From the IMG/VR virus record IMGVR_UViG_3300031951_000795, positions 1 to 31,381 of that record: a stretch of DNA of 31,381 nt. One strand, 5' to 3'. The position numbers were made by a program, and so were the translations under genes. Source of the DNA: a virus. The notes below the pieces were generated by a model, which made no database searches, had not been told where the DNA came from, and was given only the letters and a program-made list of their open reading frames with translations. Positions 24,514-29,437 of this stretch are shown here, one piece after another (position 1 is the first letter of the stretch; every line of letters starts with the position of its first letter).

Positions 24514-24585
24514 GCGGGTGTAACTCAGTGGTAGAGTGCTAGCCTTCCAAGCTTGCTGTCGAGGGTTCAAATCCCTTCACCCGCT
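24514..24585 (+). tRNA. trnG: tRNA-Gly (TCC)
   Basis: Acceptor GCGGGTG pairs with CACCCGC; the anticodon loop CTTCCAA gives anticodon TCC; the T-arm is GAGGG-TTCAAAT-CCCTT with a terminal G-T. The anticodon stem CTAGC/GCTTG has one T-T mismatch. No encoded CCA. First RNA of the cluster. Confidence 0.95.
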
Positions 24586-24601
24586 TTGACAATTGCATAA
24601 T

Positions 24602-24746
24602 GCACGCTGTTTGTGTAGACAAACTAGGACTACTTGGCTGGCCAGCAGGAGTCTGACAAGAGATTGTAGAGAGGTCCATCAGGGTAAGAGAAGGCCGTAG
24701 CCTTCACCTCTCCTTTATCGAATGGGTTCAAGTCCCTCAGCGTGCT
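24602..24746 (+). ncRNA. unclassified structured RNA with tRNA-like ends
   Basis: The ends pair perfectly over 8 bp (GCACGCTG, 24602-24609, with CAGCGTGC, 24738-24745), and a T-arm-like GGG-TTCAAGT-CCC precedes the 3' strand, as in a tRNA. The interior is too long and has no normal D- or anticodon arm. It shows hairpins GTTTGT-GTAG-ACAAAC (24609-24624) and ACAA-GAGA-TTGT, and a nested pair, GAGAGGT/ACCTCTC (24669-24675 with 24706-24712) enclosing GAAGGC-CGTA-GCCTTC. Placed between tRNA-Gly and tRNA-Thr on one transcript. It could be an interrupted tRNA, a tRNA-derived RNA or a novel RNA. I cannot assign a class. Confidence 0.6.
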
Positions 24747-24749
24747 CTT

Positions 24750-24821
24750 GCCACCTTAGCTCAACGGTAGAGCCTTGCTTTTGTAAAGCAGAGGTTGCGG
24801 GTTCGAATCCCACAGGTGGCT
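24750..24821 (+). tRNA. trnT: tRNA-Thr (TGT)
   Basis: Acceptor GCCACCT/AGGTGGC, D-arm GCTC-AACGGTA-GAGC, anticodon stem TTGCT/AGCAG around TTTGTAA (anticodon TGT), T-arm TGCGG-GTTCGAA-TCCCA region intact. No encoded CCA. Confidence 0.96.
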
Positions 24822-24826
24822 TTCTA

Positions 24827-24908
24827 GCGAGTATACTCAAGCGGTCAACGAGGTCTGACTGTAAATCAGATGGCTACGCCTACGGGAGTTCGAATCTCTC
24901 TGCTCGCA
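24827..24908 (+). tRNA. trnY: tRNA-Tyr (GTA)
   Basis: Class II tRNA with a long variable arm. Acceptor GCGAGTA/TGCTCGC, anticodon stem TCTGA/TCAGA around CTGTAAA (anticodon GTA), variable arm TGGCTACGCCTA, T-arm GGGAG-TTCGAAT-CTCTC. No encoded CCA. Confidence 0.96.
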
Positions 24909-24962: not shown

Positions 24963-25529
24963 ATGTACCAACACGAAAATCATGTTGGCGAATTCGACAA
25001 GGTGCTTGTATTTGGTGCCCAGTCTTGTTTTGGTTATGCCATGACTTTTCATGTGATGACTGACTATGGCATAGTTCGCAGCAGAGTTCCAATACACATG
25101 CTTTGTTGGAAGCCAGATGCTCCCCAGATGCCTTTGGACTATTTGCAGTTATGGGATTGCTTCCATGAAAATGTATCTGTAGTAAAATACGATGCATTAT
25201 TTGACTGTCGGGCAAAAGTCGTAATGAAGGATAAGTCCGAGCATTGGGGTGATTACATAATGACTTTTGATTGGTACAGAAATGCATATTCCAACGAACC
25301 AAGCCAATACAAATGTTTACACATGATTGCCTTGGACAATGGAAATTATTCTTTGCAGCCAAACAACAGAATTTTTTGGAAGAATATGTCTTTCGTTACG
25401 AAGCCATTTCCAGAAAAACCAGATTTCAAAGTTGATAACAAGTCTTGGAAGTGCGAAGGAGAAAGCGATAGGTGGGTCATAGATGGTGATGATGACAATT
25501 ATTATTATGATATAAAATCCACTAAATAA
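24963..25529 (+). CDS. conserved phage protein, unknown (188 aa)
   Basis: The frame is open back into tRNA-Tyr. ATG 24963 is preferred because AGAAAAGAG lies about five bases upstream; ATG 24912 is an alternative. Residues about 10-45 (KVLVFGAQSCFGYAMTFHVM, then GIVRSRVPIHMLCWKP) and the later AKVVMKDKSEHWGDYIMTFDW resemble an uncharacterised phage protein family I have seen in marine T4-like genomes. The C-terminus is very acidic and Tyr-rich. It sits between tRNAs and the tmRNA, so cotranscription with the RNA cluster is likely. Function unknown. Confidence 0.75.
   Translation: MYQHENHVGEFDKVLVFGAQSCFGYAMTFHVMTDYGIVRSRVPIHMLCWKPDAPQMPLDYLQLWDCFHENVSVVKYDALFDCRAKVVMKDKSEHWGDYIMTFDWYRNAYSNEPSQYKCLHMIALDNGNYSLQPNNRIFWKNMSFVTKPFPEKPDFKVDNKSWKCEGESDRWVIDGDDDNYYYDIKSTK
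25522..25528 (+). promoter_or_regulatory. late promoter CTAAATA before the tmRNA
   Basis: Late motif overlapping the stop of the preceding gene. The predicted start at about 25534 is just upstream of the tmRNA acceptor piece. Confidence 0.6.
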
Positions 25530-25533
25530 ATTT

Positions 25534-25850
25534 GGCATTGATGATAACGGATTGAAATGCGAACAGCACAGGGGTTCGACTCCCCTCGGCTCCATTCGGT
25601 TAGCGGCTTGGTAAGAACAAGCGGAGTTGAGAAGACTCGCACTTGCGTAAAACGGTCTACTGCGAATTGACCGACAAAGCAAGAAAGAGGGTGAAAATCC
25701 TTCCTAACCACTTTACGGGGCTGAACAGGTTTCGACTGGCGCAGAGTAATGAAGAAGGAGATGCCCGACACGGGTAACAAGTGTCGTAAATAAACAGTTG
25801 CAACAACAAAAGCCGCACCAATGCGGATGGCTGCTTAAAGCAGTGGGGTT
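25534..25850 (+). ncRNA. ssrA: tmRNA, circularly permuted two-piece type
   Basis: The acceptor half comes first: T-arm AGGGG-TTCGACT-CCCCT (25570-25586) and acceptor 3' strand CGGCTCC plus A (25587-25594). After a spacer of about 120 bases comes the coding half, starting GGGGCTG (25717-25723) and GGTTTCGACT. GGGGCTG pairs with CGGCTCC and places G3-U70, the alanyl-tRNA-synthetase identity pair. P2 pairs CTG...CGCA (25736-25743) with TGCG...CAG (25558-25566). PK1 is an H-type pseudoknot: GCCC/GGGT and GACAC/GTGTC (25763-25785). The tag reading frame is 25800-25838, with its stop in the loop of CTGCT-TAA-AGCAG. CCA is not encoded. It would rescue stalled ribosomes during infection. A terminator follows. 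Confidence 0.92.
25800..25838 (+). other. tmRNA tag reading frame (ATTKAAPMRMAA)
   Basis: By alignment with the usual upstream context (AACAGTT then GCA), the resume codon is GCA 25800. The 12-residue tag ends in Met-Ala-Ala and TAA 25836. The hydrophobic-Ala-Ala end is the type recognised by ClpXP and related proteases. The resume codon is inferred, not measured. Confidence 0.8.
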
Positions 25851-25851
25851 T

Positions 25852-25886
25852 CCCGGTTTTCCCGCATCTGAAAAACCGGGTTTTTT
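25852..25886 (+). terminator. intrinsic terminator of the tmRNA
   Basis: CCCGGTTTT (25852-25860) and AAAACCGGG (25872-25880) form a 9-bp stem with an 11-base loop, followed by six Ts. The loop CCGCAT can also pair with ATGCGG in the tag (25821-25826). Confidence 0.9.
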
Positions 25887-25910: not shown

Positions 25911-26570
25911 ATGGCCTTAAACCCTTATTTTAACAATTATGCTGGCGAACAGAATCTGGTAGAAGATATAACAGTGGAAGTTATAAAAGCCACAGGCACA
26001 AATTGCGTTTATGTGCCAAGGGAATATCTGAATATTGACAAAGTTTTTGGTGAAGATCCTGGTACAAAATTTAAAGATTCTTATACAATTGAAATGTATC
26101 TTTTGAGCTATAAAGGATTTGATGGCACAGATATAATCAGTCAATTTGGAATGGAAATAAGAGACAAAGTCGTGTTGGTGATGGCTAGAAAAAGATTCAA
26201 GGAAGAAGTAACTAACATAAATTCCTCGATAACAAGACCAAGAGAAGGAGATCTAATCTATTTTCCATTGGCAAATTCATTATTTGAAATAAATTTTGTA
26301 GAACATGAAAATCCATTCTATCCTCTTGGAAAACTTTATTCCTATACAATAACTGCAGAACTATTCACATACAGTTATGAAAAGATGAATACCAAAAACA
26401 CAGCAATTGATTCTGTATACAATACCACTAAGGGTGCCTGTGCAGCGAACATTATTCCAATGAACAACATGCTCGGCACCACAGCGGGCATAAATGATGT
26501 TTTAGAAGACGAGTCATCCTTGTATGATTTCAATGCAAATAATCCAGGGGCAACCTGTGCCCCTGCCTAA
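25911..26570 (+). CDS. 14: neck protein, T4 gp14-like
   Basis: The opening ALNPYFNNYAGEQNLVED and the blocks YVPREYLNIDKVFGEDP, FGMEIRDKVVLVMARKRF, RPREGDLIYFPL and LFEINFVEHENPFYPLG are typical of gp14 from T4-like cyanophages. gp14 joins gp13 on the portal after DNA packaging to form the neck to which tails attach. The 219-residue length is slightly short compared with T4 gp14, with a low-similarity C-terminus. It has its own late promoter following the tmRNA terminator. This is the clearest virion morphogenesis gene in the window. Confidence 0.93.
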   Translation: MALNPYFNNYAGEQNLVEDITVEVIKATGTNCVYVPREYLNIDKVFGEDPGTKFKDSYTIEMYLLSYKGFDGTDIISQFGMEIRDKVVLVMARKRFKEEVTNINSSITRPREGDLIYFPLANSLFEINFVEHENPFYPLGKLYSYTITAELFTYSYEKMNTKNTAIDSVYNTTKGACAANIIPMNNMLGTTAGINDVLEDESSLYDFNANNPGATCAPA

Positions 26571-27908: not shown

Positions 27909-28556
27909 ATGGATCCAGCATTTACAAAAATTCAACAATTACTTTATACTACGCAAATGTTAACTGAAGAATTAGAAATTGTTTATGGTATTTTAGACAA
28001 CTTGTTTGAAGAAGAAGATTATGATCTTCCAGCAGAAATTCTTGTGGAGAAAAAGAAGTGGATTCAAAAAGCCATCAAGAAAGAAGGGGCTCTTCGTAAA
28101 ACAACGAAGACCAAGGAAGGAAAAAAGATTCCTGTTTCAAAACTAAAGAAGGCTGCAGAAAAGGGTGGCAAAACAGGAAAGCGTGCTCGCCTTGCTCTCA
28201 CACTTAGAAAGTTGAATGAACAAGACGAAGGCGAGACAATGGATAGACCATGGGACACTTTCATTGGATTGGTAAGCAACGCAAAGAAAGAGTTTGTAAA
28301 AACACTTCCACCAGGAACCAAGTCAATCGGTGATGATGTTGTCAAAATGCTCGATGCATTTACCGCAGACCCATCTGAGAAGGGTGATAACGTCACAGAT
28401 GACCTGATTCAAAGGGGATTCCCAGCAGAAACGATTGCTCAGGCTGCTAAGATAAGAAGACAGGCAATTCAAAGTCAGCGCAGAAGTTCGCCAGATCCAT
28501 CATTCGGTGGAACATACAAGCCAAGAGGCGACCCAAACGCCTCACCCTTCGACTGA
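27909..28556 (+). CDS. late protein with conserved phage basic domain (215 aa)
   Basis: The N-terminal 45 residues are helical and acidic (IQQLLYTTQMLTEELEIVYG). Residues about 48-100 form a strongly conserved basic block: KKKWIQKAIKKEGALRKTTK, KIPVSKLKKAAEKGGKTGKR, ARLALTLRKL. I recognise this block from many phage proteins as a domain of unknown function (IKKPGALRK...GKRARLA). The C-terminal half is soluble with a Pro/Ser/Gly-rich tail. The late promoter with a Shine-Dalgarno indicates late expression. The 3' end overlaps the convergent GroES gene by 15 bases. Confidence 0.8.
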   Translation: MDPAFTKIQQLLYTTQMLTEELEIVYGILDNLFEEEDYDLPAEILVEKKKWIQKAIKKEGALRKTTKTKEGKKIPVSKLKKAAEKGGKTGKRARLALTLRKLNEQDEGETMDRPWDTFIGLVSNAKKEFVKTLPPGTKSIGDDVVKMLDAFTADPSEKGDNVTDDLIQRGFPAETIAQAAKIRRQAIQSQRRSSPDPSFGGTYKPRGDPNASPFD

Positions 28557-28817
28557 TTCACGCTCAACAAAAGAAACCCAGTCTTGGTGGACGATGTGAT
28601 TTCCATCCTTGCCGTCTTTGATCTTGGACACATCCCACCATATGACATCACCGACTTGAATGTCTTCGGTCAATTTATTTCCGATGGAAATCACTTTTGC
28701 AGGAATTATCTTTGAAGACGATTTCTCGTTGTATATGATGCCCGCTGATGTCGTCTTTTGACCACCAATCAAAGACTTTGCGAGAATCCACTTGCCAATA
28801 GGTTTCATTTGTTTCAT
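28542..28817 (-). CDS. groES: GroES-type co-chaperonin
   Basis: The 91-residue protein follows the GroES (Cpn10) layout: MKPIGKWILAKSLIGGQKTT, SAGIIYNEKSSSKIIPAKVI (mobile loop and conserved I-I-Y), SIGN, DIQVGDVIWWDVS, and a final HIVHQDWVSFVE. T4 encodes gp31 and other phages encode related co-chaperonins to help fold the major capsid protein with host GroEL. The start MKQMKPIG (28817) has AAGGA four bases upstream, and this lies inside the acceptor stem of tRNA-Gln; 28808 is an alternative. Last gene of the long minus operon. Confidence 0.87.
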   Translation of the reverse strand: MKQMKPIGKWILAKSLIGGQKTTSAGIIYNEKSSSKIIPAKVISIGNKLTEDIQVGDVIWWDVSKIKDGKDGNHIVHQDWVSFVERESVEG

Positions 28818-28820
28818 AAA

Positions 28821-28891
28821 TTCCTTCGCTAGGATTCGAACCTAGAAAGAGAGATCCAAAGTCTCCCGTGTTACCGTTACACCACGAAGGA
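28821..28891 (-). tRNA. trnQ: tRNA-Gln (TTG)
   Basis: Acceptor TCCTTCG/CGAAGGA, anticodon loop TTTGGAT with anticodon TTG, T-arm CTAGG-TTCGAAT-CCTAG. The 5' end overlaps the last 15 bases of the SpoU gene, and the 3' acceptor strand holds the Shine-Dalgarno for the GroES gene, whose ATG follows three bases later. Confidence 0.95.
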
Positions 28892-29437
28892 GTGTACCTT
28901 GGCACAATAATTGTTCATTATGATGCCAGAGGCTGTACCAACATTGATGCTTCTCACAGAACCATACTGAGGAATGTAAAGAAGCTCGTCACACATACTT
29001 AGAACGTCTGCAGGAACTCCAATCTGTTCCTGCCCAAAGATCATAATATAATGCACAGTTGGGTCAAAGTCAAATGCGTTTATGTCTTTTGCTTCACATA
29101 CATTGTCAATTCCCAATAGTTTAACTTTGCCTTCAAACTTGGAAATAGTTTCTTCAATGTAGGACTGGAGACTGTCAATGCTTTTGACATGACGAAAGTT
29201 GGTGTAGTGATGAGTACCGACAGTCCCCCGCCTATCGTATTTCTTATTCCCATAGATCACCACTTCTTTCGCCAGAAACGCATTAGCATTCCGTATGACG
29301 GTAGCAATATTAAAATCGTTGCCAATGTTGCAGCACACAACAGAAAAGTTATGGCGCTTAGTCTCAAGATCAGCAATGATTGCGTCATCTTCCCAATATT
29401 TATAGTGATCAATTAGATTGCGGGTTTCCAGTGCCAT
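28877..29437 (-). CDS. SpoU/TrmH-family RNA 2'-O-methyltransferase
   Basis: All three SPOUT motifs are present. Motif 1 is NIGNDFNIATVIRNANAF (residues 37-54, with Arg49 and Asn50). Motif 2 is IMIFGQEQIGVP (131-142). Motif 3 is IPQYGSVRSINVGTASGI (155-172), which forms the knot that binds SAM. At 186 residues it is the size of a single-domain TrmL/TrmH protein, which methylates the ribose of tRNA or rRNA; the substrate is unknown. The stop codon lies inside tRNA-Gln. Part of the translation-related minus operon. Confidence 0.9.
   Translation of the reverse strand: MALETRNLIDHYKYWEDDAIIADLETKRHNFSVVCCNIGNDFNIATVIRNANAFLAKEVVIYGNKKYDRRGTVGTHHYTNFRHVKSIDSLQSYIEETISKFEGKVKLLGIDNVCEAKDINAFDFDPTVHYIMIFGQEQIGVPADVLSMCDELLYIPQYGSVRSINVGTASGIIMNNYCAKVHSFVV
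29257..29388 (-). CDS. candidate nested small membrane protein (43 aa), speculative
   Basis: An out-of-frame ATG inside the SpoU gene encodes MTQSLLILRLSAITFLLCAA followed by more hydrophobic residues and a basic end (RFWRKKW). That is one membrane span with a positive tail, as in a holin-like or regulatory peptide. TATAAATA lies eight bases upstream on the minus strand. GGGAAG abuts the ATG, too close for good initiation. Chance cannot be excluded. Confidence 0.2.
   Translation of the reverse strand: MTQSLLILRLSAITFLLCAATLATILILLPSYGMLMRFWRKKW

Follow-up and report, generated by a model that had tools for sequence, protein, structure and literature searches.

The spacer between the two halves of a circularly permuted phage tmRNA gene was found to be a conserved, tRNA-shaped RNA (hereafter TLS), and it is here that the novelty of the locus lies, as two-piece tmRNAs are already known from phages. 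The TLS recurs in other phages, in tRNA arrays as well as with tmRNA genes, and is apparently an undescribed family of phage RNAs. We consider it likely that the locus encodes a functional tmRNA, with the TLS spacer cut out by tRNA enzymes.

The DNA analyzed, called the window throughout, is the whole of a 31,381-base IMG/VR record. Its gene content, which includes gp14 neck protein, ribonucleotide reductase, ThyX, primase, and tRNAs, identified it as a fragment of a T4-like myovirus. The gp14 of the window was nearest to those of Stenotrophomonas, Sinorhizobium, and Caulobacter phages and of cyanophages, with identity below 60% in all cases. Elsewhere in the window, genes for a SpoU-type RNA methylase and a Cpn10-like chaperonin (28880-29437 and 28545-28817, minus strand) flank a tRNA-Gln. 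The features at and around the tmRNA gene are as follows.

24514-24908, plus strand: tRNA genes upstream of the tmRNA (tRNA-Gly 24514-24585, tRNA-Thr 24750-24821, tRNA-Tyr 24827-24908)
25522-25528, plus strand: motif CTAAATA, resembling a T4-type late promoter and located 5 nt ahead of the acceptor piece (motif counts)
25534-25594, plus strand: tmRNA acceptor piece, with the 5' strand of P2, T-arm (25570-25586), 3' acceptor strand (25587-25593), and discriminator A (25594) (RF04321, 61.2 bits; covariation in alignment A4)
25595-25716, plus strand: intervening segment, 122 nt (RF04321 alignment)
25717-25880, 3' end approximate, plus strand: tmRNA coding piece, with the 5' acceptor strand (25717-25723), D-loop region, and PK1 hairpin (25766-25786) (RF04321; A4 pair counts)
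25800-25838, plus strand: tag reading frame ATTKAAPMRMAA and stop codon TAA (sequence; ARAGORN calls the identical tag in L100, L143, L157, and L162)
25831-25843, plus strand: hairpin CTGC-TTAAA-GCAG, its loop holding the stop codon (unchanged in 12 relatives)
25844-25886, plus strand: possible pseudoknot GTGGGG/CCCGC and terminator hairpin CCCGGTTTT/AAAACCGGG followed by a T run (sequence; A4)
25911-26570, plus strand: neck protein gp14 (head closure Hc2), downstream of the tmRNA (phrog_679, E 6.8e-61)

The original prediction of a phage-borne, circularly permuted tmRNA, two-piece by the form of its gene and with the acceptor half first, was borne out. The Rfam model of permuted tmRNA, RF04321, matched positions 25534-25838 over its full length (model positions 1-213) with 61.2 bits against a gathering cut-off of 47, and the alignment placed the start of the coding piece at 25717, leaving a spacer of exactly 122 nt where about 120 had been estimated. 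The Rfam search that had been named as a check was thus positive with this model, but not with the alpha, beta, and cyano clade models RF01849, RF01850, and RF01851, none of which reached its cut-off; the best was beta_tmRNA with 35.8 bits against 84. ARAGORN did not call the window copy and did call close relatives with the same tag as permuted tmRNAs.

Most of the individual parts of the predicted structure were likewise recovered. GGGGCTG (25717-25723) pairs with CGGCTCC (25587-25593) to give the expected G3-U70 pair, and P2 joins the two pieces (25534-25539 with 25760-25765 and 25558-25566 with 25736-25743), changing on both sides in 7 pairs. Of the PK1 pseudoknot, the 6-bp hairpin is present and shows no variation among the relatives, and its candidate second stem, CCC/GGG, is invariant and shares two Cs with P2. 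The tag codons run from GCA to GCT (25800-25835), ending in small nonpolar residues, and the stop at 25836-25838 sits inside the hairpin loop as predicted. The predicted terminator is also present, its hairpin having two compensatory pairs in L143, and the candidate pseudoknot stem ahead of it is invariant. A full CCA tail is not encoded after discriminator A 25594. By analogy with known permuted tmRNAs, the intervening segment would be missing from the mature molecule.

The CTAAATA motif at the 5' end does resemble a T4 late promoter, as had been noted, and NTAAATA motifs are enriched on the plus strand (22 versus 12.1 expected), about ten of them lying within 25 nt of a gene start. These counts support the late-promoter motif itself but not the late role in translation of virion mRNAs that had been proposed with it; that the tmRNA may be used late in infection is hinted at by the promoter-like motif only.

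Relatives were sought in viral contigs with the pattern KAAPMRMAA. This yielded 32 stretches, nearly all of them permuted tmRNAs tagged ANIKAAPMRMAA or ATTKAAPMRMAA, such that a single tag family, A(TT/NI)KAAPMRMAA, extends across about 30 IMG/VR contigs with a near-identical coding half. In the codons scanned, not one of 84,980 bacterial and archaeal genomes encoded the last nine residues of the tag. Twelve distinct relatives were then aligned (A4), and 99.5% of the cells in 48 pairs were formed. Changes on both sides were seen in 14 pairs, compared to a mean of 6.7 after shuffling and 0-2 when partners were slid by 1-3 columns, and the pairing is therefore not due to chance. The G3-U70 pair was invariant in 12 of 12 sequences while adjacent acceptor pairs changed together. 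The anatomy of the tmRNA and its conservation are, in our assessment, practically certain. SmpB was found neither in the window nor in the records of 14 relatives, all of which are fragments, and use of the host SmpB is accordingly assumed.

The spacer, by comparison, varies among relatives carrying the same tag. It may be 5-6 nt (e.g., CTTTAC in L003), a 71-97-nt structured RNA that we term type B, or 122 nt, the last being found in the window and its near-twin L114 and ending in the same CTTTAC. Because close relatives carry either the minimal or an unrelated structured spacer, the spacer is modular. The earlier description gave its length correctly but missed that it is the tRNA-like RNA, the most unusual part of the locus, which is conserved and found elsewhere too.

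Two further RNAs were observed at these loci. In type B, which is unrelated to the TLS, GGCGA...AAGUCC is conserved and two loops may pair through CUGCAA/UUGCAG, replaced by CUGUAA/UUACAG in L149. It occupies permuted tmRNA spacers in L100, L142, L144-L147, L149-L152, L154, L156, L164, L165, and L168, and the one type B spacer searched against Rfam at a relaxed threshold matched no family. Another tRNA-like RNA (GCGUAG...GGUGCAAGUCC...CUACGC) is located immediately 5' of the acceptor piece in several relatives (L147 526-620, L138, L141, L143, L148, L149, L154, L159, and L163-L167) and, in L100, 5' of a TLS (about 1700-1605, minus strand).

The core of the window spacer folds as a five-way junction (z = -3.2). 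A covariance model, R1, was built from five TLS sequences, in whose alignment 100% of cells were paired with 6 compensatory pairs, versus at most 1 when slid. The following elements, all on the plus strand, were assigned by R1 and covariation.

25598-25709: TLS core, 112 nt (R1, 142 bits; 17/31 pairs compensatory in 16 sequences)
25598-25603 with 25704-25709: acceptor-like stem
25606-25622: D-arm-like hairpin
25624-25638: third arm, with a GAGAA pentaloop
25642-25683: long variable-arm-like element
25687-25703: T-arm-like element with loop UGAAAAU, abutting the closing stem

The spacers of L121 and L171, two permuted tmRNAs with divergent halves, also contain the TLS. In L170 and L173 it immediately precedes a one-piece tmRNA (RF00023, 118-120 bits). 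R1 also located a copy (81 bits) in L100, which has the tRNA-Gly/Thr/Tyr order of the window; there the TLS follows tRNA-Tyr and is not beside the tmRNA. A family scan using the conserved D-arm-like hairpin as a pattern, and hence blind to tmRNA, gave 14 further loci with R1 scores of 59-106 bits, including some near-identical strains. Ten of these belong to tRNA arrays, where the distance to a tRNA is commonly 1-6 nt (e.g., L199, L241, and L206), two are permuted tmRNA spacers (L189 and L238), and two precede one-piece tmRNAs (L230 and L220, the latter by sequence only). In several genes, both permuted and one-piece, the TLS is positioned 5-7 nt ahead of the 5' end of the tmRNA.

In an alignment of 16 TLS sequences, 96.9% of cells were paired and 17 of 31 pairs had changed on both sides, compared to no more than 7 when slid; as this alignment was fitted to R1, the slid control carries the most weight. 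More distant, GC-rich copies were chosen by the D-arm pattern. Of 57 distinct D-arm sites, 14 had both a 6-bp acceptor stem and a T-arm abutting it; shuffling the acceptor strands among sites left 0.66 on average and never more than 3. The D-arm sequence GCGUGGUNNGAACACGC is invariant in nearly all copies, the internal-loop motif GUAAAA is conserved, and the third-arm loop is GANAA in the AT-rich branch. The structure of the TLS, its membership in a family, and its locations are established with high confidence.

tRNA-like RNAs that stand alone, are mostly GC-rich, and share the D-arm were seen in L196, L192, L236/L254, L229, L211, L201/L247, and L232; most have a true T-arm loop, TTCGAAT, and several lie near recombination-type genes. 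The genes next to stand-alone copies suggested no common partner. Other RNAs noted in TLS-bearing phages were a Group I intron (L121 6604-6784; RF00028, 64.3 bits) in the phage whose permuted tmRNA carries the TLS, and Pistol ribozymes, each following a one-piece tmRNA at a distance of about 2.2-2.3 kb (L170 4010-4077, L173 3260-3327, and L230 2895-2962).

The resemblance to tRNA was evident in several ways. The cloverleaf arms, as defined by covariation, are in tRNA order with the T-arm abutting the acceptor-like stem, and of the 22 weaker R1 hits, 20 fell on genuine tRNAs in the same orientation (17 for Leu, Ser, or Tyr), in sequence of which tRNAs make up 1.3%. On the other hand, the tRNA model RF00005 gave no gathering-level match at 25595-25716 and scored the L199 copy at 13.1 bits against a cut-off of 29. 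The third arm, UU-GANAA-GA, has a 5-nt loop closed by U-G in place of a canonical 7-nt anticodon loop and lacks U33. This pentaloop and the low tRNA score indicate an RNA that is tRNA-like but not a decoding tRNA. CCA is not encoded, and C56 is absent from some T-loops.

Searches for a known counterpart gave none. At a relaxed threshold, Rfam searches of the locus and of two TLS copies matched the TLS to no known family. BLAST of the TLS from the window, L170, L199, L236, L196, and L201 against isolated phages, and of the L170 TLS against plasmids, revealed no real copy, in the former case among annotated isolates. One TLS pattern had no hits in the 84,980 bacterial and archaeal genomes, but the pattern is narrow, and absence from bacteria is therefore weakly supported. 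No such RNA was described in the openly licensed papers covered by our literature searches. Identity as an attC site was ruled out by the opposite order of arms, and a cobalamin riboswitch, considered on account of the GGUGNAAAUCC hairpin, scored 12.8 bits against 50. A Pseudomonas phage stretch (L258) has 30 nt in common with L196 but no TLS match by R1, and a tRNA-like stretch between the capsid protease and scaffold genes of Arthrobacter phage EvePickles (L259 330-442) scored 18.7 bits with R1, which does not make family membership clear.

We propose that the locus would work as follows. A single transcript, probably driven by the late promoter, would comprise the acceptor piece, spacer, coding piece, and terminator, and removal of the spacer would leave two RNA pieces held together by the acceptor stem and P2. 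Host alanyl-tRNA synthetase, recognizing G3-U70, would act with host SmpB in the rescue of stalled ribosomes, to whose products the tag ATTKAAPMRMAA would be added; transcription, charging, SmpB use, and trans-translation are all inferred for this phage tmRNA. The TLS, as an inserted RNA, would be cut on its 5' side by RNase P and on its 3' side by RNase Z or exonucleases. Its tRNA shape makes it a likely substrate for tRNA enzymes, and its excision would part the pre-tmRNA between the pieces and free a separate small tRNA-like RNA. Copies placed 1-6 nt from tRNAs imply that something must cut near the TLS ends. Recognition by RNase P is nonetheless not assured, given the low tRNA score and the lack of encoded CCA, of an anticodon loop, and in some cases of C56. 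From the tRNA shape and the abutment to tRNAs, we judge the chances of processing by tRNA enzymes to be about even.

The strongest competing explanation is that the TLS is an independent phage RNA gene, nested in a spacer that tolerates insertions and taking no part in the maturation of a real tmRNA. In L100, which is closely related and shares the tag, the TLS is part of the tRNA array and the spacer holds another RNA; distant phages have copies that stand alone. Processing and splitting do not require the TLS, since most relatives use a 5-6-nt or type B spacer, and in one-piece genes it lies 5' of the tmRNA, where excision would not separate two pieces. That relatives do without it and that it precedes one-piece tmRNAs argues that the TLS probably has a role of its own. 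Against a passive insert, 4 of the 14 strong loci recovered by the tmRNA-blind pattern abut a tmRNA, an unlikely preference. We give this explanation a substantial, if minority, chance; it and excision of the TLS can both hold.

The TLS might instead be a self-cleaving ribozyme or ligand sensor controlling 5' maturation of the tmRNA, a role that its position just upstream of several tmRNA 5' ends and its conserved GUAAAA and GANAA motifs would suit. The copies in arrays and on their own have no tmRNA downstream, however, the architecture is tRNA-like, and the locus matched no ribozyme or riboswitch in Rfam, making such a function improbable. A defunct tmRNA, acquired from a host and now in decay, would accord with the missing ARAGORN call and the modest model scores, but it is very hard to reconcile with compensatory changes throughout the tRNA domain and P2 and with a tag and coding half kept in about 30 contigs. 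Misassembly of a foreign RNA gene into the spacer, conceivable for a single uncultured contig, is very unlikely, as the arrangement recurs in a second contig (L114/L002), whose tmRNA shows base differences, and a TLS occupies the same position in four divergent ones (L121, L171, L189, and L238).

Returning to a functional tmRNA with an excised TLS, we lean toward the broader proposal that very different phages share undescribed, tRNA-shaped, non-decoding RNAs that move among tRNA arrays and tmRNA genes, and that in the window one such RNA is nested in a permuted tmRNA gene, so that one transcript would give three mature RNAs by way of tRNA-processing enzymes. The segment separating the halves of a split tmRNA has to be removed and is usually treated as filler; here it is structured, conserved, and tRNA-like. 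If tRNA enzymes excise it, this would be a simple route to building and evolving split RNA genes. The family would then represent an overlooked class of phage RNA with possible links to tRNA processing or to defenses aimed at tRNAs; as a guess, the freed TLS could serve as a decoy for host enzymes that attack tRNAs.

The original prediction supposed that few two-piece tmRNAs were known from phages, which is not the case. Buchholz et al. (2022) reported 53 two-piece tmRNAs among 133 phage tmRNA structures, 50 of the 53 being aquatic, and described that of the OM43 phage Melnitz (PMC9004378); given these counts, the window tmRNA is one more case of a published gene type. It shares with the RF04321/Melnitz type the order of acceptor piece, spacer, and coding piece, G3-U70, P2, the PK1 hairpin, and the tag frame, as well as a T4-like phage with no phage SmpB found here. 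It differs in its new tag family, KAAPMRMAA, and in the tRNA-like RNA within its spacer, and it is set apart from the alpha, beta, and cyano tmRNAs by not reaching their model cut-offs. Separately, we observed an unannotated permuted tmRNA called by ARAGORN in Caulobacter phage phiCbK (L175 1446-1885, JX163858.1) and a candidate one, recognized by eye only, in CcrColossus (L174 about 1470-1830, JX100810.1), both with long, structured-looking spacers.

Like the TLS, the CDS-less tmRNA of phage DS6A is a small phage tRNA-like RNA tied to trans-translation, but it is the tRNA-like domain of a tmRNA without the tag, whereas the TLS has a D-arm and was not tmRNA-derived by any test made (PMC11915505, PMC4131195). 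With class II tRNAs (RF00005; Leu, Ser, and Tyr), the TLS shares the acceptor-like stem, D-like arm, third arm, long variable-like arm, and T-arm, differing in the GANAA pentaloop, the lack of U33 and of encoded CCA, and a score far below cut-off. The mascRNA-menRNA family (RF01684) is eukaryotic and matched L236 weakly (19.3 bits, cut-off 42.5). RNase P and RNase Z release these RNAs from the MALAT1 and MEN beta transcripts, which offers a model, by analogy, for what we propose for the TLS, a tRNA-like element within a longer RNA that is excised by tRNA enzymes.
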